Source: Ensifer canadensis (GTDB lineage: Bacteria > Pseudomonadota > Alphaproteobacteria > Rhizobiales > Rhizobiaceae). From it: a stretch of 64,000 bases of DNA. Below the pieces are notes generated by a model, which was not told the DNA's origin, made no database searches, and saw only the letters and a program-made list of their open reading frames with translations. This document shows, one piece after another, positions 24,575 through 45,821 of the stretch. The translations under genes and the position numbers were made by a program. Location: the NCBI RefSeq assembly GCF_017488845.2, contig NZ_CP083375.1, positions 1 through 64,000 on the forward strand, given 5' to 3'. The number at the start of each line of letters is the position of its first letter. Position 1 is the stretch's first letter.

Positions 24575-24675
24575 AGATTAAAGCAGTCGGAGCAACGTGG
24601 CAGACCAACTCCCCACATCAATTTCCGTGTTCTTCGCGCGTTAATCCTATCTCCCAGTGTGAAAAACTAGGTGCC

Positions 24676-24764
24676 GTACCTCTGGAACTTTTCCCAGATG
24701 CTGGATGCGGTCAAAACAATAAGATTGAGCCCAATGAGATCTCTGTTCCGCTGCCGACGATGGG
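24676..24764 (+). repeat. Promoter-segment repeat, copy A (inverted relative to 40,296-40,383)
   Basis: This ~89-bp segment upstream of the P450 gene recurs in reverse orientation upstream of the type II thioesterase gene. From the lux-box-like palindrome onward, 41 of the first 44 bases are identical, and the copies stay alignable to CCGCTGCCGACG with only a 2-base length difference. Each copy points into its own operon at a similar distance (151 and 133 bp from box to start codon), so it looks like a duplicated promoter rather than a transposon end. Confidence 0.7.
24680..24699 (+). promoter_or_regulatory. Lux-box-like operator upstream of the P450 operon
   Basis: The sequence TCTGGAACTTTTCCCAGA (24,681-24,698) is an imperfect dyad with arms TCTGG/CCAGA. 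It fits the CTG-N10-CAG pattern of LuxR-family binding sites. It is followed by GCGGTCAAAACAATAAGAT, which may include the -10 region. LuxR proteins and a LuxI synthase are encoded in the same window. That it is bound by one of them is inferred. Confidence 0.55.
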
Positions 24765-24849
24765 CATCGACAATGAGATTCGAACGCGTCGAGGATGCGA
24801 GACCGATCGTCGATTGATTGATTGAACAATTCTTACGGGAGCAGAGATT

Positions 24850-26262
24850 ATGAAAACAGGTGCTGCTGTACAGAATGTTTCTTTGGATGCCGGTAGCGAG
24901 CGCGATCGCCGCGGGGCTTATCCCGATGTCTCGAAACGATTATCTCAAATACCGGGAAAGAGTGGATTTTTCTCCGCCATTTCGACGGCGATGGCGATAC
25001 GACGTGACGGTGTCGACTACTTTGTCAAGCAGCGGGAAAATTACGGTGACATCTATCGCGATTGGTTAGGCTCGGACCACGTGGTCGTGGTGACGAGTCC
25101 CGATATCATCGGCAGCATTCTGCGCAACGAGGACAGGGCATGGTCTACGGGGATAGCTGCTGGAAAGACAACCGAAGGTTTAAGCTTGCATATTCCTGCC
25201 GGCAGGCGTGGAAACTCGTTTGGTTTGGATCTTGAGCATCATAACAGCGCGGTAGAACTAGTGCGGCATGCGTTCAGTAGAATTGCTCTCCACGGCTACC
25301 TTTCGACAATTCAAAAGAGCTTCAACGAAGATATTCAAAATTGGCGTATTCATAAAACGATCGGCTTCAAGAAGGAGGTACATCACATCCTTTCAAAGCT
25401 TTCAGCGAGACTGTTCCTTGGCATCGATGACAAGAGTGAATCGAACAGGGTACGGGATACGACGGACGCCCATTGGAAGGCGTTCACGTCGATCATTAAA
25501 AGTCCGGTCCTCAACCCCAAACGTAGAAGAGCTGTTGAGCTTAAGAGAGCTTTGCGCAGCCAGATTCTTTCGTTGATTCCCATCAGGCGAAAGAGGCCAG
25601 GCACTGATGTCCTGAGCTACTTATGCAATCTGGATGAACAGCCTGGGGAGCTGGACGACGAGCATCTTATAGACCTTCTGTTCGGCGTCATATTTCCGTC
25701 CTTCGATACAACGGCGCTTGGCCTTTCCAGCATGTTCTATCTGCTCGCGACACACCCGGAGTGGCAAGAGCGTGTGCGGTCGGAAGTATTGTCACTACCC
25801 GACGATCTCAGTCTGGACGATCTCCAGAAGATGGAGGTTACCGAGTGGGCGTGGAAGGAAACGTTACGCCTCTATCCCGTTTCACCGGTCGCGCAGAGGA
25901 CATCGCTGAAGACGCAAACCTTGGCCGATCACAAGATTCCTGCCGCCACTCGCGTCACTCTATCCATTGGTCAGCTGGGTTTTTTGCCGGAGTACTGGGA
26001 GCATCCCAAGCGTTTCGATCCGGAGAGATTTTCCCCGCAGAGAGCGGAGGATCGGGGGCATGAATATATCTATATGCCGCTTGGGCATGACCTTGATCGA
26101 TGCACAAGTGCTCAACTTTCGTCGATGGAAATGAAGTTGTTATGCATCGCTATTTTGAAGCGCTACAGAATAGAATTGCAACACCCTTACGACGCCAGGC
26201 ATAGGCTCGCGCCGTTGGGATCGGTATCCGGAGACATCGAACTCAAATTGAATAAGTTGTGA
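24850..26262 (+). CDS. Cytochrome P450 with atypical heme loop
   Basis: 470 residues; ATG with GGGAG nine bases upstream. Probable tailoring oxidase of the polyketide. P450 landmarks: I-helix FPSFDTTALG, K-helix E-x-x-R (KETLRLYP) and PERF. The Cys loop reads MPLGHDLDRCTSAQLS: the heme-ligand Cys is present, but the usual Gly residues and the Arg/His before Cys of F-G-x-G-x-R-x-C-x-G are replaced, and Ser follows where Gly is expected. No redox partner gene is visible nearby. First gene of the operon behind the lux-box-like site. Assignment to the family is firm; activity is open because of the altered loop. Confidence 0.88.
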   Translation: MKTGAAVQNVSLDAGSERDRRGAYPDVSKRLSQIPGKSGFFSAISTAMAIRRDGVDYFVKQRENYGDIYRDWLGSDHVVVVTSPDIIGSILRNEDRAWSTGIAAGKTTEGLSLHIPAGRRGNSFGLDLEHHNSAVELVRHAFSRIALHGYLSTIQKSFNEDIQNWRIHKTIGFKKEVHHILSKLSARLFLGIDDKSESNRVRDTTDAHWKAFTSIIKSPVLNPKRRRAVELKRALRSQILSLIPIRRKRPGTDVLSYLCNLDEQPGELDDEHLIDLLFGVIFPSFDTTALGLSSMFYLLATHPEWQERVRSEVLSLPDDLSLDDLQKMEVTEWAWKETLRLYPVSPVAQRTSLKTQTLADHKIPAATRVTLSIGQLGFLPEYWEHPKRFDPERFSPQRAEDRGHEYIYMPLGHDLDRCTSAQLSSMEMKLLCIAILKRYRIELQHPYDARHRLAPLGSVSGDIELKLNKL

Positions 26263-26489
26263 CCCATGGTGACGGTTTACGTCTTTTCTCAGACTGGGTT
26301 CCCAGTTTTGCGGGATTGGCGAAGAGCGATGACAGCCATACCCCCTTCGAGGGCTCATCGGTGGTTTTAGCCAGCGCATAGCGGCTCTCACATCTCGTCC
26401 GACGACGATCACATGCATTAGCCATCCGGTAGTATCGGCCGACCAATGCCGTTGCCACCACAACTTCTTCAGGTTGCGAGACAAAGAAC

Positions 26490-27749
26490 GTGAACACAGT
26501 TGGAATCGAAGCTATGAATGTCTTTGCTGGCACTGCCTGCTTAGACGTGGCTAAGTTGGCCAGACACCGCGGCTTGGACATGAGACGGTTTGAGAACCTG
26601 TTGATGCGGGAGAAAACCGTCGCATTGCCCTATGAGGATCCGGTAACCTTCGCGGTCAATGCGGCCAAGCCGTTGTTGGATTCATTGACGCCTGAAGAAA
26701 GAGACCAGATCCGGATGGTCATCACCTGCACGGAATCGGGAATCGATTTCAGCAAATCGATGAGTACCTATTGTCACGAGTTGCTTGGACTAAGCCGCAA
26801 TTGCCGTCTCTTTGAAATCAAGGGGGCGTGTTACTCCGGCATTGCAGGCTTGCAGATGGCAATCAACTTCGTGCTATCGCAGACCCGGCCCGGTGGAAAA
26901 GTGCTGGTGCTAGCCACCGATGTCTCGCGCTTCATGGCGGAGGAAGGCGACGAGACGCCATCGGCCGACTGGTCTTTTGCCGAACCCAGCGGCGGCTCCG
27001 GTGCTGTTGCCATGCTGGTGAGCGATCAACCACACATATTTCAGATCGACGTCGGCGCGAACGGTTATTACGGCCATGAAGTGATGGATACCTGCCGGCC
27101 ATCTACGGACACCGACAGTGGCGATGCCGACTTGTCCTTGCTGTCATATCTCAACTGCTGCGAGAACGCTTTCCTAGACTATCAAATGCGCGTCACCGAT
27201 GCCGATTTCGCGGGAACCTTCGCGTACCTTGCTTATCACACACCATTCGGCGGCATGGTCAAGGGCGCCCACCGAAATATGATGCGGAAATTAGCTAAGG
27301 CCGCGTTGGCCGACATCGAAGCCGATTTCCAGCAACGCGTCATGCCGGGTGTGACGTACTGCCAGCGCGTCGGCAATATTATGGGCGGGATGGCGCCCCT
27401 GTCTCTCATCAGCACGATCTGTAACGGCGACTTCTCCGCTCCCCAGAGGGTTGGCGTGTTTTCCTACGGCTCGGGCTGCTGCTCCGAGTTCTTCAGCGGC
27501 GTGGCCCGGCAGGAGGGGAAGCAGCGTCTTCGCGAGATGAAAATCGGCGAAAGCCTCGGGCGGCGCCATGAGTTGACGATCGAGCAATATGAAAATCTGC
27601 TGCGACGGAGTCGGGAGATCAGGTTCGGGACCCGTGACCTTGTCGCGGATGCCAGCTTCATTCCCGAGGCCCGGAGCGCCCTCGGGAAGCCAGTCCTGTT
27701 TCTCAAGAGCGTCAAGGAATTTCACCGCGAATACGAGTGGGTATCATGA
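26490..27749 (+). CDS. HMG-CoA synthase-like enzyme of the beta-branching cassette (PksG type)
   Basis: Adds an acetyl unit from a donor ACP onto the beta-ketone of an ACP-bound chain, first step of beta-branching. The GTG start at 26,490 is chosen because VGIEAMNVF matches the family N terminus; an ATG at 26,514 would cut it. Catalytic features: TESGID (Glu), Cys114 in GACYSGIAG, and His in AYHTPFGGMVKGAHR. Full length at 419 residues. Its stop overlaps the ATG of the next gene (ATGA). It works with the dehydratase, donor ACP and KS that follow, and with the ECH2 domain and Trp-flagged ACPs in PksA. The 227 bp between the P450 gene and this one hold no gene. Confidence 0.94.
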   Translation: MNTVGIEAMNVFAGTACLDVAKLARHRGLDMRRFENLLMREKTVALPYEDPVTFAVNAAKPLLDSLTPEERDQIRMVITCTESGIDFSKSMSTYCHELLGLSRNCRLFEIKGACYSGIAGLQMAINFVLSQTRPGGKVLVLATDVSRFMAEEGDETPSADWSFAEPSGGSGAVAMLVSDQPHIFQIDVGANGYYGHEVMDTCRPSTDTDSGDADLSLLSYLNCCENAFLDYQMRVTDADFAGTFAYLAYHTPFGGMVKGAHRNMMRKLAKAALADIEADFQQRVMPGVTYCQRVGNIMGGMAPLSLISTICNGDFSAPQRVGVFSYGSGCCSEFFSGVARQEGKQRLREMKIGESLGRRHELTIEQYENLLRRSREIRFGTRDLVADASFIPEARSALGKPVLFLKSVKEFHREYEWVS

Positions 27750-28510
27750 CGGAAATTTACCGGAACCTCCGCGTCCGTTTTGAAGACGACCTCTGCTTCG
27801 TGCAGATTTACCGCCCGGACACCAACAATGCGATCGATGAACATCTGGTTATCGAGATTATCGACGTTCTGGATCAATGCGAGACTGCGGTGAAAATACT
27901 AGTGCTAGAAGGCTTGCCCGAGGCATTTTGCTTAGGTGCGGACTTCAAGCAACTACAGTTTGGCGACACTCCAACACCGCAGGATCCCGGACCGCTTTAT
28001 GATCTGTGGTATCGGTTGGCCACCGGTCCGTATGTCACCATTGCCCATGTGCGTGGTCGTGTGAATGCCGGCGGTGTCGGCTTTGTCGCAGCTTGCGATG
28101 TAGTGCTTAGCGATGACAAGGCCAGTTTCAGCCTATCCGAATTACTATTTGGTTTGATGCCTGCCTGCGTGTTTCCGTTTCTTGTCCGGCGCATCGGTTT
28201 TGCACGAGCTCACTATCTGACGCTGATGACCCAACCGGTCACCGCGCAACGGGCGTTGGAATGGGGGCTGGTGGATGCATGCGAGGAAGACAGCGCAAAT
28301 CTGCTCCGCAAGCATCTGCTGCGCCTGCGCCGTCTCAGCAAAGATGCTGTCGCGCGCTACAAGCGCTATGCCGTTGCCCTCGACGATAAGTTGATGACGT
28401 CTCGCATGCCGGCCATTGCCGCCAACGTCGAGGTGTTTGGAAATTCCGACAACCTGAAAAACATCGAGCGTTTCGTAGACACCGGTAGGTTCCCGTGGGA
28501 GGCGGCGTGA
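27746..28510 (+). CDS. Enoyl-CoA hydratase-like dehydratase of the beta-branching cassette (PksH/ECH1 type)
   Basis: 254 residues, starting at the ATG in the ATGA overlap with the HMG-synthase gene. Strongly PksH-like: EGLPEAFCLGADF, PLYDLW, GPYVTIAHVRGRVNAGG, ASFSLSELLFGL, LLRLRRLSKDA. The family dehydrates the HMG-like intermediate. The following decarboxylation by ECH2 has no free-standing gene here; the PksI-like domain in PksA (about residues 2978-3215) most likely supplies it. Confidence 0.93.
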   Translation: MTEIYRNLRVRFEDDLCFVQIYRPDTNNAIDEHLVIEIIDVLDQCETAVKILVLEGLPEAFCLGADFKQLQFGDTPTPQDPGPLYDLWYRLATGPYVTIAHVRGRVNAGGVGFVAACDVVLSDDKASFSLSELLFGLMPACVFPFLVRRIGFARAHYLTLMTQPVTAQRALEWGLVDACEEDSANLLRKHLLRLRRLSKDAVARYKRYAVALDDKLMTSRMPAIAANVEVFGNSDNLKNIERFVDTGRFPWEAA

Positions 28511-28634
28511 TGTTCGGGGAAATCATCTGCATAGCCCCGAGGATTCCCTGCGAGCAGGATCGTACATCCGGTGGATGCAAGGCAAGGCAATCAGGAATGT
28601 CTTCATCAGCAATCGGACAATTGGAGCTAATATC

Positions 28635-28874
28635 GTGAGCCAGGACCTGATCTTCGAAACCATCGTGCGTCATACGCGGGAAGTTCTTCCCGGCTTGGAC
28701 GGGTACGTATTCAAGCCGACCGACTCGCTGCGCGAACTGGGTGCGAATTCGATCGACCGCGCCGATATCATCATGATGACGCTGGAATCGTTGTCGTTGG
28801 ATTTCCCTCTGATCGAGGTCGCCAAGGCGCAGAGCATCGGAGATCTCGCCGGCATCATCCATGCAAAGATCTGA
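28635..28874 (+). CDS. Acyl carrier protein of the beta-branching cassette (AcpK type)
   Basis: 79 residues from a GTG start with TTGGAG seven bases upstream. Phosphopantetheine site LGANSIDRAD, with the following IMMTLESL typical of donor ACPs that carry the malonyl-derived acetyl unit. Upstream in-frame starts (28,575) would add a tail unlike the family. The stop lies inside the start of the next gene (14-bp overlap), so ACP and KS are probably translationally coupled. Confidence 0.9.
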   Translation: MSQDLIFETIVRHTREVLPGLDGYVFKPTDSLRELGANSIDRADIIMMTLESLSLDFPLIEVAKAQSIGDLAGIIHAKI

Positions 28875-30108
28875 CCGAGCGGAGTTGATTGTCAGCGGCG
28901 TCGGTGTCGTTTCGGCCATCGGGCAGGGGCAGGCTGCCTTCGCTGCTGCGCTGCTGGAAGGGCGTCACCGTTTCGACGTCATGCAACGCGCTGGGCGACA
29001 GCTGCCGCAAAATGCCGATGCACCGGCGAGCTCCTTTCTCGGCGCAGAGATCGAGCAGCTGGTAATGCCCGAAGCTATTCCCAAGACCTTGTTGCGAACT
29101 GCCTCGCTTTCCGGGCAGGCAGCGCTGGTGGCCCTGCACGAGGCATGGCTGGATGCTTGCCTCCGCGAGGTCGAGCCGGATCGTATTGGCTTGGTAATCG
29201 GCGGTTCCAATGTCCAGCAGCGCGAGTTGACGCAGGTCCATGACGCCTACCGAGACCGGGTGAGGTTTTTGCGCCCGACTTACGCGATGTCGTTCATGGA
29301 CAACGATCTGTGCGGCCTATGCACGGAAGCTTTCGGTATTGGCGGCTTTGCCTATACCCTGGGTGGCGCTTCTGCCAGCGGGCAAATGGCAGTCCTGCAA
29401 GCACTGGAGGCGGTGCAAAGCGGGCGCGTGGATGTCTGCATCGCGATGGGCGCGTTGATGGATATTTCTTATTGGGAATGCCAGGGCTTCCGTTCGATCG
29501 GCGCGATGGGGTCGGACCGCTATGCTGAAGAACCGGCGCAGGCCTGCCGGCCTTTCGATGCCGGTAGCGATGGCTTCATCTACGGTGAAGCCTGTGCCGC
29601 GGTGGTCATCGAGCGCGCCGATACTCTCCGGCGCTCCAACGTTGCGCCCTATGCACGGTTGTCCGGATGGGCAATGGGTATGGACGGCAACCGAAATCCC
29701 AATCCTTCGCTGGAGGGTGAGATTGCGGCTATCAGAGGCGCCCTTGAGCACGCTGGTCTGGCGCCAGGCGACATCGATTACATCAATCCGCATGGTACGG
29801 GCTCGGCAATCGGCGATCCCGTAGAGCTGAAAGCGTTGCGTGCATGCGGCCTTGGCGACGCCGCTATCAATGCGAGCAAGTCTGTGATCGGTCACGGTTT
29901 GAGCGCCGCCGGCGCGGTGGAAGTGGTAGCGGTGCTGTTGCAAATGCGCGCCGGGCGGCTGCATCCAACACGCAATCTCGATCGTCCCATCGATCCAGAC
30001 TTCAATTGGGTGCGACAACAGGCTGTATCGCATCCCATCGAACACGCCCTGAACCTCAGCATGGGCTTTGGGGGCGTCAACACAGCGGTGTGCTTGAGCA
30101 AATGTTAG
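28861..30108 (+). CDS. Decarboxylating ketosynthase of the beta-branching cassette (PksF type)
   Basis: 415 residues. KS fold, but the nucleophilic Cys is replaced by Ser (GGASASGQMA instead of the Cys-containing motif), while both catalytic His motifs are kept (NPHGTGSAIGDP, VIGHGLSAAG). Such Cys-to-Ser KSs decarboxylate malonyl-ACP to acetyl-ACP for the HMG-synthase. Order HMG-synthase, ECH1, ACP, KS is a standard HCS cassette. Confidence 0.92.
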   Translation: MQRSDRAELIVSGVGVVSAIGQGQAAFAAALLEGRHRFDVMQRAGRQLPQNADAPASSFLGAEIEQLVMPEAIPKTLLRTASLSGQAALVALHEAWLDACLREVEPDRIGLVIGGSNVQQRELTQVHDAYRDRVRFLRPTYAMSFMDNDLCGLCTEAFGIGGFAYTLGGASASGQMAVLQALEAVQSGRVDVCIAMGALMDISYWECQGFRSIGAMGSDRYAEEPAQACRPFDAGSDGFIYGEACAAVVIERADTLRRSNVAPYARLSGWAMGMDGNRNPNPSLEGEIAAIRGALEHAGLAPGDIDYINPHGTGSAIGDPVELKALRACGLGDAAINASKSVIGHGLSAAGAVEVVAVLLQMRAGRLHPTRNLDRPIDPDFNWVRQQAVSHPIEHALNLSMGFGGVNTAVCLSKC

Positions 30109-30136
30109 TCATCCATTCATTCCTGGAGGCGATGTT

Positions 30137-31276
30137 ATGAAGGTACTCATATTCCCCGGCCAAGGTTCGCAAGCCAAAGGCATGGGCAAAGAACTATTCG
30201 ACCATTTCAAGGAGCTGACGGAGAGGGCAAGCGACGTTCTTGGCTATTCGATCAGGGAGCTTTGCCTTGAGGACCCGCGCAGCGAACTGAACAACACTGG
30301 CTTTACCCAGCCGGCGCTCTATGTCGTGAACGCGCTTTCCCACTACAAGTATCGAGAGGAGCAGGCTTCCGCGCCCGACTATGTGGCTGGTCACAGCCTG
30401 GGCGAGTACAACGCGCTGCTTGCGGCTGAATGCTTTGATTTCGTGACCGGCCTGAAACTGGTCAAGCGCCGTGGTGAGTTGATGGCGCAGGTCTCTAACG
30501 GAGCCATGGCCGCGATCTTGAACGCAAGCAGGGAAGACATCGAGCGCATTCTTGAAGAAAATGGCCTGACCAATGTGGATTTGGCCAATTACAACACCCC
30601 CTCGCAGATCGTCATCTCCGGCCTGGCTGCCGAGATCGCCAGGGCCGAGCCTTTGTTCACGCAGGGCCGGATGCGCTATTATCCACTCAATACGAGCGGC
30701 GCTTTCCACTCCAGGTTCATGCGGCCTGTGAAAGAGGAATTTGCCGGCTTCCTGAACACATTCAGCTTTGCCAAGCCGAAGATCCCGGTGATTTCGAATG
30801 TTTCGGCGCGTCCCTATGACGGCGCTGGGATAGCCGAGGGCCTGGCCGGTCAGATCGCCAGCACGGTGCGTTGGTCGGAAAGCGTGCAATACTTGCTTGC
30901 TCTGGCAGCAGACCGCGGCGACGACGCTGTGTTCGAAGAGATGGGACATGGCGATGTGCTTTCCCGCCTCGTGCATACTGTCAAACAGCAAACGTCGCCA
31001 TCGGAGCTATCGGCAATCGCCGTTCCGACTAAGGCCACGAGGCCGCCGGCGGTCACGGATACCGAGGGGGGACCGGCCGGGCTCGCGAGCGCGGCGGAGA
31101 AGGTCGAGGCGTGGAACAGGCGCTATGGGATCGGCACCAAAGTGAGGTCCAAGGTGGTTAACTATCCGGCTCTGGAGACACGCACGCAGGCAATCTTGCT
31201 GTTTGGTCATCGGGCTGCCGTCTACATGAAGGGCTATAACGGCTATTTCGATCTGGACGAGCTTGCGGTGCTCTGA
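30137..31276 (+). CDS. Trans-acting malonyl acyltransferase
   Basis: 379 residues; GGAGG lies upstream of the ATG. Loads malonyl units onto the ACPs of PksA/PksB, which lack AT domains. Motifs: FPGQGSQAKGMG, nucleophile in GHSLGEYNAL, and VKRRGELM, whose Arg holds the malonyl carboxylate; SGAFHSRFM carries the catalytic His. About 90 extra residues at the C terminus contain LFGHRAAVYMKGYNGYFDL, a tail I recall from other free-standing trans-ATs. Confidence 0.92.
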   Translation: MKVLIFPGQGSQAKGMGKELFDHFKELTERASDVLGYSIRELCLEDPRSELNNTGFTQPALYVVNALSHYKYREEQASAPDYVAGHSLGEYNALLAAECFDFVTGLKLVKRRGELMAQVSNGAMAAILNASREDIERILEENGLTNVDLANYNTPSQIVISGLAAEIARAEPLFTQGRMRYYPLNTSGAFHSRFMRPVKEEFAGFLNTFSFAKPKIPVISNVSARPYDGAGIAEGLAGQIASTVRWSESVQYLLALAADRGDDAVFEEMGHGDVLSRLVHTVKQQTSPSELSAIAVPTKATRPPAVTDTEGGPAGLASAAEKVEAWNRRYGIGTKVRSKVVNYPALETRTQAILLFGHRAAVYMKGYNGYFDLDELAVL

Positions 31277-31287
31277 GTTACAAAAAG

Positions 31288-32151
31288 ATGCTTTCGGAAC
31301 CTGTCATCACCATCGAAGAGCTTGGTACCCGCTACGTCGACATCTGGTTGTCATTCTACGACGAGGTTACCGATGACGCGCTACTGGCACACCTGCGCAG
31401 TTTGCTGAGCGAGAAGGAGTTGCTGCAGGAGACGCGTTTTCACTTCGCCGATGACCGGAAGCGCTACCTGGTTACGCGAGCTTTGGTGCGTAGCGTACTC
31501 TCCCGCTATGCACCGGTGCATCCGGCGTCCTGGGAATTCTGCGTTAATGCCTATGGACGTCCGCACCTCTCTCCTGCGCATGGCGATGAGGCTCAAGGGC
31601 TGCGTTTCAATGTATCTCACACACGAGGCCTGATCGCGCTGGGCGTGGCGCGCGACAGGGACTTGGGGATCGATGTCGAGCATCTGGCGGTGCGAGACAT
31701 TCCCGCGGGCCTGGCGGAGCGCTGGTTCACGCCAGAGGAGGTGACTGAACTCAACCGGACCGAGCGTGGACGCAGGCAGGAAAAATTCTTCGAATACTGG
31801 ACGCTCAAGGAAGCCTATATCAAGGCGCGCGGCATGGGTTTGTCGATACCGCTGAACCAGTTCAGCTTTCGCTACCCTCAGCCGGAGATCGTTCGCATTG
31901 CCATCGGCCCGGAGCTTGGCGATGACCCCGCGCACTGGGCCTTCTGGCATTACCGTCCGGCCGTATCCTACTTGCTCGCGATTTGCGCTGAGCGCCTTGA
32001 CGGCGTGGCGACGGAGTTGCGCATTCGCAGGTGCGTGCCCACGATTGGCGATAAAATACTGGCATTACGTCCACTGCGATCTTCAGAACCAGAAGCCTGC
32101 CTTTATCGCTCGCAAGCCTGGATATCCGGGCCTTCAGTCATCGATCTCTAA
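31288..32151 (+). CDS. Sfp-type 4'-phosphopantetheinyl transferase
   Basis: 287 residues. Converts apo-ACPs to the holo form using CoA. Sfp signatures: NVSHTRGLIALG, GIDVEHL and the WTLKEAYIKARGMGL block with the Mg-binding acidic residues. Starts 11 bp after the AT gene with no clear ribosome site. About 40 C-terminal residues beyond the family core look unstructured. Probably dedicated to the ten or so carrier domains of this cluster. Confidence 0.93.
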   Translation: MLSEPVITIEELGTRYVDIWLSFYDEVTDDALLAHLRSLLSEKELLQETRFHFADDRKRYLVTRALVRSVLSRYAPVHPASWEFCVNAYGRPHLSPAHGDEAQGLRFNVSHTRGLIALGVARDRDLGIDVEHLAVRDIPAGLAERWFTPEEVTELNRTERGRRQEKFFEYWTLKEAYIKARGMGLSIPLNQFSFRYPQPEIVRIAIGPELGDDPAHWAFWHYRPAVSYLLAICAERLDGVATELRIRRCVPTIGDKILALRPLRSSEPEACLYRSQAWISGPSVIDL

Positions 32152-32198
32152 TCGCCGATATTCGAAGCCTATCAGCTTTCCTGAAACGGGAGCCTTTC

Positions 32199-33143
32199 AT
32201 GCAAAAAGTCAAAACGGTATTCATGTTTCCAGGGCAAGGATCGCAATATCCTCAAATGGGAAGGCAGTTGTTCGACAACCACAAGGTCTTTCGTCATTGG
32301 ATGGAAAAGCTGGATCGCCCAGCCCGCGAGGTGGTCGGCCGATCCATAGTCGAGACGATCTATTCCGCAGGCAAGCATGAGATACTCGATCGCACATTAA
32401 TCACACATCCGGCCATCTTCATGGTCGAGTACGCGCTGTCGCAATGTTTGCTCAGCGAGGGAATCGAGCCAGATCTCACGTTGGGTGCCAGCCTCGGTTC
32501 GTTTGCCGCCGCGGCTCTGGCTGGCCACCTGGATATCGAAGATGCCTTGGCGGCAGTTATCCAGCAGGCCATTGCGTTCGAAAACACCTGTGCGCGCGGC
32601 GGCATGATTGCCGTCCTTGCTGGACGGGAATTGCTTGAGCAAAGCGTAGTTTTCGATCTGGCTGAATTCGCTGCGGACAATTTCGCCACTCATTTCGCAA
32701 TCGCAGTGCCAGATGCGAGGCTCGACGATATCGAGGCCGAGTTGCGGTCTCGCGATGTCGCCTATCAGCGGCTACCCGTGTCTTTCGCCTTTCATTCGCG
32801 ATGGTCCGAACCGGCCCAATTCCCCTTCGAGGCCTTCATGCGTTTGATACCGCGCAAGCGGGGCGAGTTGCCGGTCGTTTGTTGCGAGCAGGCCGCGATG
32901 CTGGACATCCTGCCCAACGATTTTTTCTGGCGCGTGGTGCGCGCTCCTATTCGCCTACGTGATACGATAACGAAACTGGAGAAGCAGGGTCCCTATCGTT
33001 ATATCGATCTCGGCCCCTCCGGTGTGATGGCGACGTTCGCAAAATACATCGTCTCCCCAAGCAGCAAATCTACGATGCATACGATCTTGACGCCGTACGG
33101 GCGGGATCAGCAGAATCTGACTGCATTGCGCAAAGTCTATTGA
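32199..33143 (+). CDS. AT-like acyl hydrolase (proofreading) of trans-AT PKS
   Basis: 314 residues. AT fold with FPGQGSQYPQMG, nucleophile in GASLGSFAAA and His in FAFHSRW. The Arg that binds the malonyl carboxylate in true ATs is missing: the aligned stretch is QQAIAFENTC, against VKRRGELM in the other AT of this operon. In trans-AT clusters such divergent ATs (PedC type) hydrolyse stalled acyl chains from ACPs. A true AT for another unit is the alternative. Last gene of its operon; it converges with the dehydrogenase operon 68 bp downstream. Confidence 0.82.
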   Translation: MQKVKTVFMFPGQGSQYPQMGRQLFDNHKVFRHWMEKLDRPAREVVGRSIVETIYSAGKHEILDRTLITHPAIFMVEYALSQCLLSEGIEPDLTLGASLGSFAAAALAGHLDIEDALAAVIQQAIAFENTCARGGMIAVLAGRELLEQSVVFDLAEFAADNFATHFAIAVPDARLDDIEAELRSRDVAYQRLPVSFAFHSRWSEPAQFPFEAFMRLIPRKRGELPVVCCEQAAMLDILPNDFFWRVVRAPIRLRDTITKLEKQGPYRYIDLGPSGVMATFAKYIVSPSSKSTMHTILTPYGRDQQNLTALRKVY

Positions 33144-33210
33144 GCTCTACCCGCGTGCATCCATCCTGCTGGAGGCGCTGGTATGTCTGGGGCTGTGCCC
33201 GGAGTTGCCT

Positions 33211-34581
33211 CTACGCGTGCAGGGCGTGTCCCAAACCCTTCAATGCGGCTTCCTGGACGCTCTCACCCAAGGTAGGATGTGCGTGGATGGTCGCTGCGAT
33301 ATCCGTCAGCGTCGCGCCCATTTCGATTGCAAGGCTGAACTGGCCGGCCAGTTCTGAAATTCCTGCGCCGACAGCCTGAATTCCCAGGACAAGTTCGTTT
33401 TCAACGTTTGTAACAAAGCGGACAAAACCATCGCTTCGTTCGAGTGTCATTGATCGACCGTTTCCGGAAAGAGGAAAAACCGAGACTTTTGTGCCGGGGG
33501 CTGATTGGGGTGAAAGTCCGACGGAAACTACTTCCGGATCGGTAAAACAGACTGCGGGGATAGATCGCTTGTCCCAGCTTGCATTTTGACCTGCAAGTAG
33601 TCCCGCGACCAACTGGCCCTGAGCCATGGCTCTGTGCGCAAGCATAGGCTCGCCGGTCACATCGCCGACAGCATAGACGCCACGCATTGACGTTTCGCAT
33701 TTCGAGTCGATTTTGAGATAGCGCCCCTGCATGTCGAGTCCAAGTGCCTCAAGGCCGGGCGTGTCGAGAACGGGCTGACGGCCCACCACTACCAAGATCT
33801 TGTCGCAGGGAATGTTCCGTTCACCGTTTGCTGTCTCTATAATCAACCCGTCTTCGGACTGCCTTTTCGCTTTCACATTGGTATGAACTGCAACGCCGAG
33901 CTTGCTCAGCCGCGCAGCGACCGGCTTGGACAGTTCAGCATCATAGCGCGGAAGAATTCTATCTTCGGCCTCGATGATCGTGACCTTGGAGCCCAGCTTC
34001 GCAAAAGCGGTCCCGATTTCCAGGCCGATATAGCCGCCTCCGACGATAACGAGGTGTTCTGGTCGTTCCGTCAACTCAAGGGCCTGCGTGGATGAGATCA
34101 CACGTCCGCCAAACGGCAGATTGGGAAGTTCAGACGGTCGGGAGCCCGTGGCGATGACGAGATTATCACATGTGATCCTGAGGACTTCCGCCTCGGTGGC
34201 AATTTCCACCGTCTTGCCGTCGATCATACTGGCGTGCCCCTGGATGGTTCGGACGTTCGCCTTCTTGAGAAGGCCTCCAACACCATCCGTTAGCTTCCGG
34301 ATGATGCCATCCTTCCAGGCGACTGTCCTGAGAAGGTCGATGTTTGCCCCGCTCGTGGAAATGCCGAGCGGCCCCGCCGGTGCATCGCAGATCTTGTGGA
34401 ACTCATTTGCAGCATGGATGAGTGCCTTTGACGGGATGCAGCCGACATTTAGGCAAGTGCCGCCCAGAGCCTTCGCCTCGACGACGAGCGTATCAAGGCC
34501 CATTTGCCCGCAACGTATGGCGCAGACATATCCGCCTGGGCCTGCGCCAACGATCAGGACTTTTGTTCTTTCCAGCTTCAT
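33211..34581 (-). CDS. lpdA: Dihydrolipoamide dehydrogenase (E3 of branched-chain 2-oxoacid dehydrogenase)
   Basis: 456 residues from the ATG at 34,581 (MKLERTKVLIVGAGPGG), five bases after the E2 stop; a longer upstream frame would overlap the E2 gene. Reoxidises the lipoyl arm of E2 with NAD. FAD motif GAGPGG, redox-active disulfide GGTCLNVGCIP, NAD motif GGGYIGLE, and the terminal HAHPTLGE with the catalytic His. Last gene of the E1-E1-E2-E3 set. Confidence 0.94.
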   Translation of the reverse strand: MKLERTKVLIVGAGPGGYVCAIRCGQMGLDTLVVEAKALGGTCLNVGCIPSKALIHAANEFHKICDAPAGPLGISTSGANIDLLRTVAWKDGIIRKLTDGVGGLLKKANVRTIQGHASMIDGKTVEIATEAEVLRITCDNLVIATGSRPSELPNLPFGGRVISSTQALELTERPEHLVIVGGGYIGLEIGTAFAKLGSKVTIIEAEDRILPRYDAELSKPVAARLSKLGVAVHTNVKAKRQSEDGLIIETANGERNIPCDKILVVVGRQPVLDTPGLEALGLDMQGRYLKIDSKCETSMRGVYAVGDVTGEPMLAHRAMAQGQLVAGLLAGQNASWDKRSIPAVCFTDPEVVSVGLSPQSAPGTKVSVFPLSGNGRSMTLERSDGFVRFVTNVENELVLGIQAVGAGISELAGQFSLAIEMGATLTDIAATIHAHPTLGESVQEAALKGLGHALHA

Positions 34582-34586
34582 TGCCT

Positions 34587-35894
34587 CTATCGCCCCATGA
34601 AGATTATCGCCGGGACCTCGAGCAGGGACTTCATCCGCTGCACAAACCGCGCGGCATCCCAGCCATCGATTACACGGTGATCGAAGCTCGCCGAAATATT
34701 CATCATCGTTCTCGGGATGAATTGTTGGCCGTCCCACATCGGACGAACAGCCATCTTGTTTATGCCGAGAATGGCAACCTCAGGGTGATTGATGATGGGG
34801 GTGGTGGCAATGGCGCCGAGGGCGCCAAGCGAGGTGATGGTAAAGGTCGATCCGCTGAGTTCTTCCCGTGTGGATTTTCCTGTCCTCGCAGCTTCGGCAA
34901 GGCGGGCTATTTCCGTCGCCGTCTCGTACGGATCGAGGGCTTCGGCGTGGCGCAGTACAGGCACGACAAGACCGGTTTCCGTCATTGTGGCAATACCGAC
35001 ATGCAGCGCCGAAAACCGCGTCACATAACCGGCGGCGTCATCGAAGTGGGCATTCATTTCGGGATGCTCCGCCAGCGCCTTTGATAAGGCTGCTGTGATG
35101 AACGGAAGCATCGTCAATTTTGGCTTGTCGCCTTTATCCGCGTTCAATTTCGAGCGGAGCTCTTCGAGCGATGTCACGTCCACTTCTTCTACGATAGTAA
35201 TATGCGCAATGCGGCTGTTGGCAAGAGACATGCGGTCCGCGATCCTGCGGCGCAGGCCAACGACTTTGATTTTCTCCTCGCCGTTTCGTCTACGTTCTTG
35301 AGTTGGCAATGCTTCGGCCGTGCATGAGCCGGCTACCTGAAAAACGCGGGCGAGATCGTCATGCGAAATGCGCCCGGCTGGACCTGTGCCTGCAACACGA
35401 CGAAGATCGATGCCGGCACTTTTTGCACGAGCACGGACGGACGGTGAAGCGAGCGGAGCTTCCCCTTCCGGTCTTGGCGGCGAAGCATAGGCCGGCACAA
35501 CTGCGGATTTTTCTGAGGCCGGATCATTCGGTTCATGGTGCAACCGGCTGTCGTTCACTGCAGCTGTGGATGTCACATTTCTCGGTTTGGAAATATCCGC
35601 GACCTCGGGCACAGCCGCCAACTGCGGCGCTGTTGGGGACGCCGCTATGCCGTCAACGACCTCGATACTGACAAGGCTGGCACCAACGGCGACGGGTTCT
35701 CCGGGTCGGCAAGCCAACGCGAGAATCCTGCCTTCATAAAGGGAGGGGATCTCGACCGTTGCCTTGTCTGTCATCACACTGGCGATAATGTCGTCTTCTC
35801 GAACGGTTACACCGACGGCGACGTTCCACTCCAGAAGCTCGACCTCGGTGATGCCTTCTCCGATGTCCGGAAGCTTCATTGAAAGGATGGTCAT
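34587..35894 (-). CDS. bkdB: Branched-chain 2-oxoacid dehydrogenase E2 (lipoamide acyltransferase)
   Basis: 435 residues. Lipoyl domain 1-80 (lipoylated Lys in VMTDKATVEI), flexible linker, peripheral subunit-binding domain about 150-185 (ASPSVRARAKSAGIDL, GPAGRISHDD), and a catalytic domain ending in ISASFDHRVIDGWDAARF (catalytic H-x3-D-G). It passes the branched acyl group to CoA, giving isobutyryl-, isovaleryl- or 2-methylbutyryl-CoA. The ATG abuts the E1beta stop. Confidence 0.94.
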   Translation of the reverse strand: MTILSMKLPDIGEGITEVELLEWNVAVGVTVREDDIIASVMTDKATVEIPSLYEGRILALACRPGEPVAVGASLVSIEVVDGIAASPTAPQLAAVPEVADISKPRNVTSTAAVNDSRLHHEPNDPASEKSAVVPAYASPPRPEGEAPLASPSVRARAKSAGIDLRRVAGTGPAGRISHDDLARVFQVAGSCTAEALPTQERRRNGEEKIKVVGLRRRIADRMSLANSRIAHITIVEEVDVTSLEELRSKLNADKGDKPKLTMLPFITAALSKALAEHPEMNAHFDDAAGYVTRFSALHVGIATMTETGLVVPVLRHAEALDPYETATEIARLAEAARTGKSTREELSGSTFTITSLGALGAIATTPIINHPEVAILGINKMAVRPMWDGQQFIPRTMMNISASFDHRVIDGWDAARFVQRMKSLLEVPAIIFMGR

Positions 35895-36911
35895 CTACGC
35901 CTCCTCCATCGTTTTCGTGATGGCGCGCGCGATCCGTTCGGGGCTGGGGAAGTAATCCCATTCCTGCGCCAACGGATAGGGAGTGTCCCAACCGGTCACG
36001 CGAAGGATGGGTGCCTTGAGGTGCCAGAAGCAGGTCTGCTGGATTTCCGCAATCACTTCCGCACCAAAACCGCTGGTCCGGGTTGCCTCATGCACGACCA
36101 AGCAGCGTCCGGTCTTCCTGACGGATGCCTCGATGGCTTCGAGATCGAGTGGAAGTAGCGATCTGAGGTCGATAATCTCGGCATCGATCTCCGTTGCCCT
36201 GACCGCGGCTTCGGCGACGAAAACCATGGTTCCATAGGCAAGTATCGTAATGTCTGTTCCGGGACGACGAACAACGGCCTTGCCGATTTCGATGCTATAG
36301 TGTCCCTCGGGAACGTTGCCTGCCGGATGTGATGACCAGCCGACCGATGAACCGGAGTGGTTGCCGTAAAACGGCCCGTTGTACAGACGCTTGGGCTCCA
36401 GGAAGACAATGGGATCCGGATCTTCGATGGCCGAGATCAGCAGTCCCTTTGCGTCATAAGGTGTGGACGGAATGACAACTTTGAGACCGGCGACATGGGT
36501 AAAGAGAGCTTCCGGGCTCTGACTATGCGTTTGCCCGCCAAAAATGCCGCCACCGGTTGGCATCCGTATGACGAGCGGACATGTAAACTGCTCGTTGGAT
36601 CGATGCCGGATTCTCGCGGCTTCCTGGGTGATCTGGTCGTAGGCAGGATAGACGTAGTCTGCGAACTGGATCTCGACGCACGGCTTCATGCCTTGGGCTG
36701 CCATTCCAACGGCAAGCCCGACAATCGCGCTTTCGTTGATGGGCGTGTCGAATACTCGCTCTTCGCCATATTTGGCCTGCAAGCCCGACGTACAGCGAAA
36801 GACGCCGCCGAAATAACCAACGTCCTCACCGAAGATGATGACGTTTGGATCTTTTCCAAGCATCACATCCATGGCGTCGCGAAGCGCTTCGATCATCGTC
36901 ATGGTGGGCAT
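35895..36911 (-). CDS. bkdA2: 2-oxoisovalerate dehydrogenase E1 beta subunit
   Basis: 338 residues from the ATG at 36,911, one base after the E1alpha stop. Transketolase-type beta subunit: MIEALRDAMD, FGEDVGYFGGVFRCT, PINESAIVGLAVGMA, HSQSPEALFTHVAGLKVVIP, and the C-terminal GWDTPYP. Longer frames upstream lie inside the E1alpha gene. Forms the alpha2beta2 E1 with the neighbouring subunit. Confidence 0.94.
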   Translation of the reverse strand: MPTMTMIEALRDAMDVMLGKDPNVIIFGEDVGYFGGVFRCTSGLQAKYGEERVFDTPINESAIVGLAVGMAAQGMKPCVEIQFADYVYPAYDQITQEAARIRHRSNEQFTCPLVIRMPTGGGIFGGQTHSQSPEALFTHVAGLKVVIPSTPYDAKGLLISAIEDPDPIVFLEPKRLYNGPFYGNHSGSSVGWSSHPAGNVPEGHYSIEIGKAVVRRPGTDITILAYGTMVFVAEAAVRATEIDAEIIDLRSLLPLDLEAIEASVRKTGRCLVVHEATRTSGFGAEVIAEIQQTCFWHLKAPILRVTGWDTPYPLAQEWDYFPSPERIARAITKTMEEA

Positions 36912-36912
36912 G

Positions 36913-38148
36913 TCAGTATCCCATCTCTTGGCGTTGGCGACGCAGGTGTTCCGGTAAGTCGGCGTAAACGCCGCGGAAGAAGGCGGAGGGGGAGAACGGT
37001 TTCGGATTGACGAAAGTCCCCTGTGCCTCGACTGCTTTCTGGATCTGAATGACCTCTTCCAAAATCTCAGCTTCTGCCTGAACATGGCGTTCCTCGCTCC
37101 AGTCGCCATGTCTGATCAGGTAACTCTTCAGCCGTTCAATCGGATCGCCGAGTGGCCACGCCTTGGCCTCATCCTTGGGCCGATAGGCAGACGGATCGTC
37201 AGATGTGGAGTGGGCTGCCACGCGATAAGTGAACCACTCTATGAGAACCGGACCAAATCCTGATCGAGCCCGCTCGATAGCCCAGCGAGACACTGCAAGG
37301 ACGGCAAGATAGTCATTTCCATCCACGCGAAGCGCCGGAATACCATAGCCCAATGCGCGGGTGGCGTAGGTTTTGCCCGCACCCGAAGCAACGGCGGTAT
37401 AGGTCGAGATTGCCCACTGATTGTTCACGACGTTCAAAATGACGGGGGGCTGATAGACCGATGCGCTCAGCATGCCGCTATGGAAGTCATTGGTGGCAGT
37501 AGCGCCGTCGCCAATCCACCCGGCGGCGATCTTGCCGCATTTCCTAAGTGCACACGCCATTGCCCAGCCGACGGATTGAACAAACTGTGTGCCGAGGTTC
37601 CCGGATATGGTGAAATAGCCAAAGTCTCGCGCTGAATGCATGTTGGGCAGCTGGCGACCCTGGATGGGATCAGCATGATTACAATAGATCTGCCCCATCA
37701 GATTTTCCAACGGATAGTCGGCGGCTACGAGCAATGATTGCTGGCGATAGGTCGGGAAATTCATGTCTCCGCGCTGTAACTGCCTTTGGAAACCGCATCC
37801 GATCGCCTCCTCGCCAATGCCTTGCATATAGAAGGATGTTTTGCCCTGGCGCTGCGCATTGAGCAGCCGTTTGTCGACCGTGCGCATCCGAAGCATATCT
37901 CGGAGGCCAAGGCGCAGTTGATCCGGGTTGACATCTTCAATGCGCTCGGCCCAGGGGCCAACAGCTCGGCTTTCGCTGTCCATTATGCGGATCAAACCCT
38001 CCGCATAATGGCGTGAAGCATCTGCCTTTAGGTCAAGTGGCGGTACGTCGTATTTGCCTGCCTCCGGAATCGCGATCCTTGAAAAATCTGGCAAATCATC
38101 AGGGCGCGCCGGCGGATGCGAATAGTTGAGCCTAACTGCAGTATTCAT
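36913..38148 (-). CDS. bkdA1: 2-oxoisovalerate dehydrogenase E1 alpha subunit
   Basis: 411 residues. Thiamine-diphosphate-dependent decarboxylating subunit. The ThDP motif is GDGATATNDFHSGM...NN; the family insert TYRVAAHSTSDDPSAYR contains the Ser phosphorylated in mitochondrial enzymes. The long N-terminal region (RIPE-like start to about residue 60) is typical of the Pseudomonas/Rhizobium BkdA1 type. Full-length, so the four-gene complex looks intact. Separated by 279 bp from the methyltransferase gene on the same strand; that gap holds no gene I can support. Confidence 0.94.
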   Translation of the reverse strand: MNTAVRLNYSHPPARPDDLPDFSRIAIPEAGKYDVPPLDLKADASRHYAEGLIRIMDSESRAVGPWAERIEDVNPDQLRLGLRDMLRMRTVDKRLLNAQRQGKTSFYMQGIGEEAIGCGFQRQLQRGDMNFPTYRQQSLLVAADYPLENLMGQIYCNHADPIQGRQLPNMHSARDFGYFTISGNLGTQFVQSVGWAMACALRKCGKIAAGWIGDGATATNDFHSGMLSASVYQPPVILNVVNNQWAISTYTAVASGAGKTYATRALGYGIPALRVDGNDYLAVLAVSRWAIERARSGFGPVLIEWFTYRVAAHSTSDDPSAYRPKDEAKAWPLGDPIERLKSYLIRHGDWSEERHVQAEAEILEEVIQIQKAVEAQGTFVNPKPFSPSAFFRGVYADLPEHLRRQRQEMGY

Positions 38149-38427
38149 TTACGGGCATCCTTGTAGCTGCATCAGGTGGGATCACCAATCGTCGGTCGTC
38201 ATGTCTCAGCTGATTTGCTGGATATCGGCGGCGAGCGGCATCGGCATTTGTAGAGAACAATCAGGACTCGGTTACGAAGTAATTTTCACTGTCTCGACCA
38301 CGGCGTTCGAAAGGTATTTCTTCAACTAGACCGTGGCTCGGCAGACGTAGTGGCGCAGCCAAGCCACACCGTGGCTAATGGCAGAGGCGGGTCGGAGCCT
38401 CCTGCGTGGAACCGCCGCTCAAGGACT

Positions 38428-39303
38428 TCACACTCGTGCGCATACGCACCGCCAAAGGGACCCACTTTGCAGACCGTCCTTGCGGCGTGAAAGGTAACGA
38501 GAGTTGATTGCTTCCGGTCCGGGATCTTCAACATGCCTAAAGCCAAGTTCTCTGAGTTGCTGCTGCAAATGTTCCGGTTCGAAGCTCGAAAGCCACGGTT
38601 CGCCCAAGGCGGCGATCTCTTTTTCGGCAAGGTCGACGACGAAGCGCTCGACTGGGCCGAGATGCGATGCCGGCACACGATAGTCGAAGGTAATGCTGCT
38701 CCCGACAGGTTGCGACGCCACGAAGGAAAGCGTATCGAGCACAGCCTGAGGTGTCAGGTAGACGGTAACGCCCATCCAGCAAAAGCACGCTGGTTGGTCC
38801 GCATGAAATCCTGCCACAGCAAGCCTCTCTGCGAGCGTGTCATGCTCGAAATCTACAGGTACGAAGGTCACTGAGTCAGGCAAAGCAATCCCGGCGGTTT
38901 CCAAGCATTGCCGCTTCCATTGCTGGGTGGACTCATGGTCCACCTCGAATACTCGCACACCGGTTTCCACATGAGGGTTGCGATATGCAAATGTATCCAA
39001 GCCAGCACCCAACACCACATATTGCCGTATTCCTTGAGCCACCGCGCGAGCCAGTTCATCCTCGGCGAAGCGGCTGCGGGCAACAAGAATCGCCCTGGAC
39101 CCGCGAGATAAGGGGTCATTCATGCTAAATGGATCCCGCCGCAACGCGGCCTCTGTTTCGGGTCCAAGGATCCTCAGGGCAATTGGATCAGACAACACGA
39201 TCGGTTCATCAAGCAACTGATGTACCGCGCGCAGCGAAGCTGTACTCAGTGCGGTGCGACTGGGTTCACCGCCGTGAAGGATATTTTTGAAATTGGAGGG
39301 CAT
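38428..39303 (-). CDS. SAM-dependent methyltransferase (leucine carboxyl methyltransferase/TIGR00027 type)
   Basis: 291 residues from the ATG at 39,303, chosen because AGGAG lies six bases upstream; longer starts lack this. Motif I is YVVLGAGLDTFAYR, followed by VFEVDHESTQQWK, which carries the acidic SAM-ribose residue. The family methylates carboxyl or hydroxyl oxygens and is common in polyketide clusters. Substrate here is inferred to be the polyketide. It lies between the thioesterase and dehydrogenase genes on the same strand. Confidence 0.85.
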   Translation of the reverse strand: MPSNFKNILHGGEPSRTALSTASLRAVHQLLDEPIVLSDPIALRILGPETEAALRRDPFSMNDPLSRGSRAILVARSRFAEDELARAVAQGIRQYVVLGAGLDTFAYRNPHVETGVRVFEVDHESTQQWKRQCLETAGIALPDSVTFVPVDFEHDTLAERLAVAGFHADQPACFCWMGVTVYLTPQAVLDTLSFVASQPVGSSITFDYRVPASHLGPVERFVVDLAEKEIAALGEPWLSSFEPEHLQQQLRELGFRHVEDPGPEAINSRYLSRRKDGLQSGSLWRCVCARV

Positions 39304-39450
39304 ATGTTCTCCTAAAGCGGAATGGTATGGGAATCTTGAAATTGTCCGGTTTGAGTTCAGCTGCTTACCGTTGACTTCGAACATTAGCTGGCCTCGGCCC
39401 TTCATGGCCGACGATCAATCGGGTCGGTGTTTGGACCCCACCACTTGCTT

Positions 39451-40227
39451 TTATCGTGGCAAGTGTCTTTTCCTCCAGGGTATGGGGTCGGTTTGGGCCC
39501 TGACCACCTCGAAGACGGCTGAAGGATTTTCAAACGGAAAGAAATGTCCGTAGGGAAACGTCGATCTTGAAAATGGTCCTCTGGTGTATTGTGCCCAGGC
39601 CGACAAACCCTTGTCATCGGTTAGCGGATCGAATGATCCGGCCAGAGCCGTGATAGGAGCGGCAATTTGCTCGAGCCGATCCGGTATCCAGTTTTGTCCA
39701 AGCTTGAGATCCAGGCGAAGCGCCGCAGAATAGAGGCGCCACATCTCATCATTGGCAAGTACTTCAGCAGGCGTTCCGCCAAGTTGTTTCGTCATTTCCC
39801 GAAGATCTTTATCTGAAGAGCGATGGAGATCGTTACGAGTGGAATGGGATGGGGCGACGCGGCCCGAAACAAACAGGTGTTTGATCGGCTTCCTTCCAGC
39901 CTGCTCAAGCGCCGAAGCGACTCCGAAGCCGACGAGAGCGCCAAAGCTGTGACCAAATATTACGAGATCGTCTTCATTACCTTCAGGCAATGCATCCGCT
40001 ATGGCGCCAATTGCGTCACCGAGTGTTGAAAACGGTGCTTCTGAAAATCTCTGTTCCCGACCGGGCATACAGATCGAGATCACCTCGGACCATCCAGCCG
40101 TAAGCGAAGGCCCTAATCGCTTCCATATTGAAGCACCACCCCCGGCCGGGGCGCATAGGAGCAACCGGCGGCCACCGGGGTTATCCCCGGGCATAGTGAT
40201 GAGCAGATCGCGAGAGTTGTTTTTCAT
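39451..40227 (-). CDS. Type II thioesterase
   Basis: 258 residues. Alpha/beta hydrolase of the GrsT/RifR class: LLLCAPAGGGASIW, CMPGREQRFSEAP, nucleophile in FGHSFGALVGFG, Asp in AGSFDPLTD, His in FPYGHFFPF. Such enzymes remove aberrant acyl groups from carrier domains or release intermediates. First gene of the minus-strand operon; the lux-box-like site is 133 bp upstream of its ATG. Confidence 0.92.
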   Translation of the reverse strand: MKNNSRDLLITMPGDNPGGRRLLLCAPAGGGASIWKRLGPSLTAGWSEVISICMPGREQRFSEAPFSTLGDAIGAIADALPEGNEDDLVIFGHSFGALVGFGVASALEQAGRKPIKHLFVSGRVAPSHSTRNDLHRSSDKDLREMTKQLGGTPAEVLANDEMWRLYSAALRLDLKLGQNWIPDRLEQIAAPITALAGSFDPLTDDKGLSAWAQYTRGPFSRSTFPYGHFFPFENPSAVFEVVRAQTDPIPWRKRHLPR

Positions 40228-40295
40228 TTCTGGAACAGCAGTCCTTTTCGGAAGCGAATTGGCAGTTTGCGATCTTTATCGTGCTTTCATCTGAT

Positions 40296-40383
40296 CCCGC
40301 CGTCGGCAGCGGTCTCACGACATCATTGAGGCATTCTTGTTGTTTTGACCGCGTGCAGCATCTGGGAAAAGTTCCAGATATAC
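40296..40383 (-). repeat. Promoter-segment repeat, copy B (inverted relative to 24,676-24,764)
   Basis: Counterpart of the segment upstream of the P450 gene, read on the minus strand towards the thioesterase gene. Conserved parts are the palindrome, the downstream GCGGTCAAAACAA and CCGCTGCCGACG. The two copies bracket a 15.6-kb stretch containing the two facing operons, so recombination between them could invert that stretch. Confidence 0.7.
40360..40379 (-). promoter_or_regulatory. Lux-box-like operator upstream of the thioesterase-methyltransferase-bkd operon
   Basis: The 18-bp core (40,361-40,378) is identical on the minus strand to the box upstream of the P450 gene: TCTGGAACTTTTCCCAGA. 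It fits CTG-N10-CAG. Placement suggests LuxR-type control of the minus-strand operon, parallel to the plus-strand one. Confidence 0.55.
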
Positions 40384-44590: not shown

Positions 44591-44697
44591 TTTTGCTCTC
44601 CTCACAACATGAACCCATCGTGAGGGAGCATAGTTATGTAGAGCGATCACGCGTCCTCGATCTATCTAAGCATCGGTGACGACGCAATAATCCATAG

Positions 44698-45801: not shown

Positions 45802-45821
45802 ACCCGGGATTTTTCCCAGGT
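45802..45821 (+). promoter_or_regulatory. Lux-box-like palindrome upstream of luxI
   Basis: ACCCGGGATTTTTCCCAGGT is an imperfect 20-bp dyad, 92 bp upstream of the luxI ATG. It shares GGxAxxTTTTCCCAG with the boxes at 24,680 and 40,360, and like them is followed by TGCT and then CAATA. It would suit LuxR-AHL autoinduction of luxI and perhaps the divergent small gene. Confidence 0.5.

Follow-up and report, generated by a model that had tools for sequence, protein, structure and literature searches.

A LuxI-LuxR pair of Ensifer canadensis predicted to control a polyketide cluster through promoters that resemble copies of one unit

We analysed a window of 64,000 bases (bases 1-64000 of contig C6, which measures 195,834 bp and is one of 6 contigs of the 8.09-Mb Ensifer canadensis genome) that carries a luxI-luxR pair and operons of a large polyketide synthase (PKS) cluster. 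A lux-type box stands ahead of luxI and ahead of three operons of the cluster. The LuxR encoded at 46721-47503 probably uses these four boxes as its operators, and a single circuit of LuxI, LuxR and an acyl-homoserine lactone (AHL) would activate both the cluster and luxI. The promoters of the three biosynthetic operons (P450, bkd and PKS) are also alike beyond the box, and copying of one promoter-plus-leader unit appears to be the better account of their likeness. The regulon would then be sharply defined (four promoters, one receptor, and no further strong site found on the replicon), with a large plasmid-borne polyketide cluster placed under one signal via whole-promoter copies, one per operon.

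The initial annotation had placed the same palindrome in two inward-facing segments, and we found it there without a mismatch: TCTGGAACTTTTCCCAGA occurs exactly at 24681-24698 (+), centred 160 bp upstream of the ATG at 24850 of the P450 operon, and at 40361-40378 (-), centred 142 bp upstream of the ATG at 40227 of the thioesterase/bkd operon. The third, related palindrome that it had reported near luxI is present as well, with its start at 45803 instead of 45,802; this box (CCCGGGATTTTTCCCAGG, 45803-45820, +) is centred 102 bp upstream of the luxI ATG at 45914. The fourth box (TCTGGAATTTTTCCCAGA, C6:156457-156474) lies outside the window and belongs to the core PKS operon, its centre 216 bp upstream of the first PKS start. 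A palindromic box, if an imperfect one, is thus found upstream of luxI and of the target operons, and CTG-N10-CAG ends are found in both exact boxes and in the PKS box.

The site is not widespread. Allowing up to 3 mismatches, TCTGGAACTTTTCCCAGA has 2 matches in the window, both perfect (expected 0.06; 0 of 100 shuffles gave 2). With at most 1 mismatch, CTGGAACTTTTCCCAG is found at 3 places in the whole genome, namely the P450 box, the bkd box and C6:156458-156473, each of which stands upstream of a cluster operon. Relaxing the search to 3 mismatches gives 97 matches genome-wide as compared to 88 with a reversed-pattern control, so the loose matches are background. We also built a matrix from the 4 C6 sites and the luxI sites of Rhizobium lusitanum and R. 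rhizogenes; the top four hits on C6 are the four boxes (24.7-30.5 bits), with no close fifth (next 16.7 bits). Since these boxes helped to build the matrix, the pattern scan with its 3 places is the more telling result. Searching upstream of luxR revealed no box, and an inverted-repeat search of the two promoter stretches reported none. Near matches to the box in 15 congener genomes number 5 (17 with the reversed control); at these sites and at C2:1059236 the sequence resembles neither C6 nor the luxI-luxR loci, and all are taken as chance matches. One of the congener near matches (G395) is identical in every letter to the R. lusitanum luxI box.

The two paralogous segments of promoter plus leader lie at 24676-24769 (+, P450 operon) and 40291-40383 (-, thioesterase/bkd operon), and match profile R1 with 90.1 and 89.2 bits, respectively; R1 was built from the P450, bkd and PKS promoters, both of these sites included. 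Over the first 44 bases, ungapped, the P450 and bkd promoters share 41, which is the count that the initial annotation had given; the bkd and PKS promoters share 36, the P450 and PKS promoters 34, and luxI shares 23-26 with the three. In the 82 bp 3' of the box, local alignment of the P450 and bkd promoters scores 30 (shuffle maximum 14, n=2000). The other two biosynthetic pairs score 16 and 15 (shuffle maxima 15 and 13), and 0 of 2000 shuffles reach any of the three scores. The same flank of luxI scores 6-8 against the biosynthetic promoters, and 334 to 1659 of 2000 shuffles score as high. In the 80 bp 5' of the box all six pairs are unalike (94 to 583 of 1000 shuffles equal the real score), including P450 and bkd (score 9; 200 of 1000 shuffles equally high). 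The P450-bkd similarity extends ~65 bp beyond the box, a length greater than a box plus a -10 element should require, and for this reason copying of a promoter-plus-leader unit is preferred; the PKS promoter would be an older or more altered copy. The initial proposal of promoter duplication over convergence is supported for the P450 and bkd promoters and extends to the PKS promoter; luxI takes no part in the duplication past the box and TGCT.

With 150 candidates scored per genome, R1 has 3 matches with E<1e-23 in its own genome (the sites used to build it) and the next at E 0.227, and its best match in 15 other genomes of the genus has E 0.015, with no convincing further copy. A mobile repeat as the carrier of the box was considered and is unsupported by these 3 strong matches in 8.09 Mb.

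The product of luxI (45914-46588, +) belongs to the AHL synthase family (Autoind_synth, 66.6 bits; solved relatives exist). It adjoins the convergent luxR (46721-47503, -), which encodes an AHL-binding domain and a GerE helix-turn-helix, and CviR is the closest solved structure to this protein. Its residues W76, Y80, D89, P90, W104 and G132, presumably the LuxR signature residues of the ligand-binding and DNA-binding domains, are invariant across 13 aligned LuxR proteins. Its recognition-helix region (ISQKSVDFYT) differs in two other LuxRs of C6; the stretch is nearly unchanged in LuxR relatives from Bradyrhizobium sp. USDA 4369 (54%) and Xanthomonas (43-44%) (P0010, P0011, P0012). C6 contains a second LuxR-type gene at 49687-50439 (-; AHL-binding and GerE domains, no luxI alongside, beside transposase genes), another at C6:94026-94850 (AHL-binding and GerE domains), and a further one at C6:110907-111611, for which Pfam gives the AHL-binding domain only. 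A second luxI-type gene lies outside the window (C6:133695-134195, -), and the repeats upstream of it (e.g. GGTGCAAATCTGCACGT) resemble the tra box, whose consensus is ATGTGCAGATCTGCACAT; a search of C6 for this exact consensus found nothing. From these tra-like repeats and the differing recognition helices, two quorum-sensing circuits with distinct boxes seem to share the replicon. A TraI/TraR conjugation circuit acting at the four boxes was rejected, as the boxes differ from the tra box and the tra-like repeats stand at the second luxI.

The claim of one LuxR-AHL circuit over both window operons fits the genome-wide specificity of the box, the presence of a luxI box in a further two species, the complete domains of LuxR and LuxI, and the different repeats at the second luxI. 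In the proposed circuit, AHL from LuxI would load LuxR at high cell density, and the loaded dimer would bind the CTGG-N8-CCAG-type boxes. It would then activate the PKS operon, the P450/beta-branching/acyltransferase operon and the thioesterase/methyltransferase/bkd operon, as well as luxI (positive feedback). Induction of the assembly line would then coincide with that of tailoring, carrier-protein activation and starter supply, and the whole cluster is probably switched on together at high population density. The three biosynthetic promoters would have arisen via copying of one unit that comprised the box, the core promoter and the leader. Binding by LuxR, dependence on AHL, activation as opposed to repression, and the position of the core promoter are all predictions from sequence.

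Several observations weigh against this circuit. The luxI promoter shares with the others only the box and TGCT, its flank being otherwise unalike. The luxI box is 3 of 16 bases off the others and falls among the loose-match class, so that its support comes from its position and the matrix and not from the pattern scan. Across species, the region upstream of luxI is conserved along its length, and the box is not singled out. The dyad, with outer CTGG/CCAG, is imperfect, as only 5 of 8 pairs of the 16-mer are complementary. Finally, a sigma-70 consensus scan around the P450 box (24600-24900) found no promoter-like site, although such a scan says little for rhizobial promoters.

Another LuxR-type protein of C6 (e.g. 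49687-50439 or C6:94026-94850) might bind the boxes, and the cluster would then answer another signal. C6 does have several such genes, the two named ones with both domains, but the box stands at this luxI and at its orthologues in two species, the second luxI has tra-box-like repeats instead, and the recognition-helix region of both named proteins differs; we consider such a receptor unlikely. Still less probable, in our view, is that the palindrome serves a regulator of the cluster that does not respond to AHL and resembles a lux box by accident. The imperfect dyad, the missing promoter consensus and the fact that LuxR binding is itself deduced would suit such a regulator, but luxI is preceded by a copy of the box in three genomes, and the CTG-N10-CAG ends recur in three of the boxes (P450, bkd and PKS).

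Convergence on box plus core promoter, in place of duplication, is a very unlikely cause of the likeness among the three promoters: the likeness does peak in the box, and the PKS promoter resembles the other two to a modest degree (34-36 of 44 bases; flank scores of 15-16 with shuffle maxima of 13-15), but the P450-bkd alignment goes on for ~65 bp past the box with a score of 30 against a shuffle maximum of 14, and luxI carries the box without that flank. The boxes could also be functional relics of a decaying, unexpressed cluster. One ketosynthase domain in the window is indeed split across two frames, and relatives retain mere scraps of the cluster, but an assembly error would produce the same split, and the remaining listed cluster genes have the expected domains in open frames (about two thirds of one PKS protein, PKS2, being unscanned). 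We rate this explanation as rather unlikely, though the most serious of the four, and prefer control of a working cluster by the LuxR at 46721-47503.

The P450 operon (24850-33143, +) encodes a P450, an HMG-CoA-synthase-like protein, an enoyl-CoA hydratase, a ketosynthase, an acyltransferase, a phosphopantetheinyl transferase and another acyltransferase. The thioesterase/bkd operon (33211-40227, -) encodes a thioesterase, an LCM-type methyltransferase and the bkd components E1alpha, E1beta, E2 and E3, and would supply the starter unit. Genes within each operon are presumably co-transcribed (for the P450 operon, on the basis of order and strand). The two operons converge, ending at 33143 (+) and 33211 (-), and a terminator search between them (33000-33350) found none. 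The later part of the PKS operon occupies 1-23999 (+), with open reading frames at 1-10515, 10362-11714, 11408-14434 and 14445-23999.

The first base of C6 is the exact ATG of a PKS frame, and the frame is uninterrupted when the contig ends are joined, which suggests a circular C6; a comparison of the ends found no overlap, so we infer the circle. By size and gene content C6 is probably a plasmid. If it is circular, the PKS operon starts at C6:156682 behind the fourth box, and the PKS genes read across the joined ends as a protein of 5030 aa, then one of 7933 aa (to 195785), then the window up to 23999. At the start of the PKS, MaoC and SDR domains are accompanied by a weak HAD-like match under the Pfam cut-off; plasmid matches to this weak region are annotated as HAD-IIIC phosphatase. 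The PKS also has condensation and adenylation domains, an FMO-like domain and many ketosynthases. No acyltransferase domain was found in the scanned PKS parts (2672 of the 7933 residues of PKS2). As acyltransferases are encoded separately at 30137 and 32199, this fits a trans-acyltransferase (trans-AT) system.

One ketosynthase domain is divided over two frames (10362-11714 and 11408-14434), with frame changes at ~10.3-10.5 and ~11.4-11.7 kb, which may reflect a decaying gene or an assembly error. Homopolymer runs of at least 6 bases are absent from 9.9-12.1 kb.

The closest orthologues found are on R. lusitanum 629 p_1 (LuxR 99.2% and LuxI 98.7% identical), followed by those of R. rhizogenes NBRC 13257 (LuxR 95%; LuxI 226 of 245 residues), and the luxI boxes there are CTGGGATTTTTCCCGG and CTGGGATTTTCCCCGG, respectively, which brings the genomes with this box to three. 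In both strains, scraps of the cluster flank the pair. Those of R. lusitanum include the end of the last PKS (86 residues, 57%), the methyltransferase (182 residues in two pieces, with an internal stop) and the first 37-48 residues of E1alpha, with the gene order of the window and its orientation towards luxI preserved. At the corresponding place in R. rhizogenes, on the luxR side (L055 ~8057-8176, -), we found the leader of the P450 operon with its opening codons (score 67, as against at most 43 in 1000 shuffles), the best place for this match in the 20.8-kb locus, with a degenerate promoter trace immediately upstream (E 0.0059). Traces left by either the bkd or the PKS promoter were sought in R. 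lusitanum, and none was convincing (best scores 37-40, within the shuffle range). From these scraps, the cluster or much of it appears to have once adjoined luxI-luxR in both lineages. Between R. lusitanum and R. rhizogenes, the ratio of nonsynonymous to synonymous change (NG86 dN/dS) is about 0.10 for luxI (0.039/0.384) and 0.05 for luxR (0.020/0.385), which fits kept function over an interval that may in part predate the loss of the cluster.

The pair may thus be a fossil circuit in these two strains, a once dedicated cluster switch of which synthase, receptor and box remain and the cluster has decayed, a view for and against which we see about equal grounds. If true, the circuit would now serve communication, eavesdropping or new targets, its original message ('make the polyketide') being gone at the locus. 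This would suggest where the quorum-sensing pair found in R. rhizogenes and R. lusitanum came from, and would give a handle on the survival of a signal pair after the genes under its control are gone. The P450 of the window has its nearest relatives in R. rhizogenes (75%), another protein (63%), an Acidobacteriota bin (47%) and Burkholderia (41% and 40%, the latter in strain FERM BP-3421), and the first of these (P0159), encoded on a 269-kb contig, suggests that an intact cluster may exist in that R. rhizogenes strain.

Searches for LuxI at E<=1e-40 in 394 genomes of the family, and for LuxR at E<=1e-35 in 397 genomes of the order and at E<=1e-28 in 398 of the phylum, each returned the own genome only. 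At E<=1e-10, LuxI matches occur in 16 of 16 genus genomes (best outside the own genome 1.4e-19, 31% identity). Searching genome contigs gave one luxI-luxR locus (R. rhizogenes NBRC 13257), and searching plasmids one close record (R. lusitanum p_1). An empty site, sought with R. lusitanum flank DNA, could not be named, the matches being just 65-77% in 16 of 16 genus genomes.

Mupirocin is a trans-AT polyketide. The MupR/MupI circuit, which turns on the mupirocin cluster according to the available text of PMC11837529, is like the one proposed here in placing a polyketide cluster under AHL, and belongs to another genus. In Chromobacterium, the CviR site is CTGNCCNNNNGGNCAG and csuI/csuR are convergent (excerpts of PMC12114271); CviI/CviR and CsuI/CsuR thus share with our system the convergent pair (csuI/csuR) and a CTG-N10-CAG palindrome ahead of luxI and targets, but the inner bases of the box differ, and here the predicted targets are operons of one polyketide cluster, with three promoters that appear to be mutual copies. 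The LuxI/LuxR systems of p_1 and R. rhizogenes form one group in PMC13133039, where a chromid-associated context C is reported in the accessible text. We infer that its p_1 is the R. lusitanum 629 p_1 of our comparison and that these systems are context C; the words 'polyketide' and 'biosynthetic' are absent from its main text, and the polyketide link is drawn here. Titles and abstract openings of the papers listed contained no description of this regulon.

Spliceostatin-type trans-AT clusters offer a lead on the product, in that the P450 is 40% identical to that of Burkholderia sp. FERM BP-3421, a strain which we take to be spliceostatin-linked. The bkd operon and the LCM methyltransferase are differences, and the PKS comparison covers the Pfam domains in a portion of the protein; a spliceostatin-like product is offered as a lead. 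X. cannabis produces spliceostatins (PMC7930024, as far as its available text goes), but the Xanthomonas LuxR relatives mentioned above come from other species.

The stretch at 41467-44650 (-), which lies between the bkd promoter and luxI, carries three tyrosine recombinase genes in a row, a trio of the kind known as RIT elements. The stretch has about 81-93% identity in the plasmid records listed, and is likely a later insertion that parted luxI from the bkd operon. Further along, 53015-54565 (-) encodes a single protein that matches both L,D-transpeptidase (YkuD) and the AstE/AspA catalytic domain, an odd pairing.

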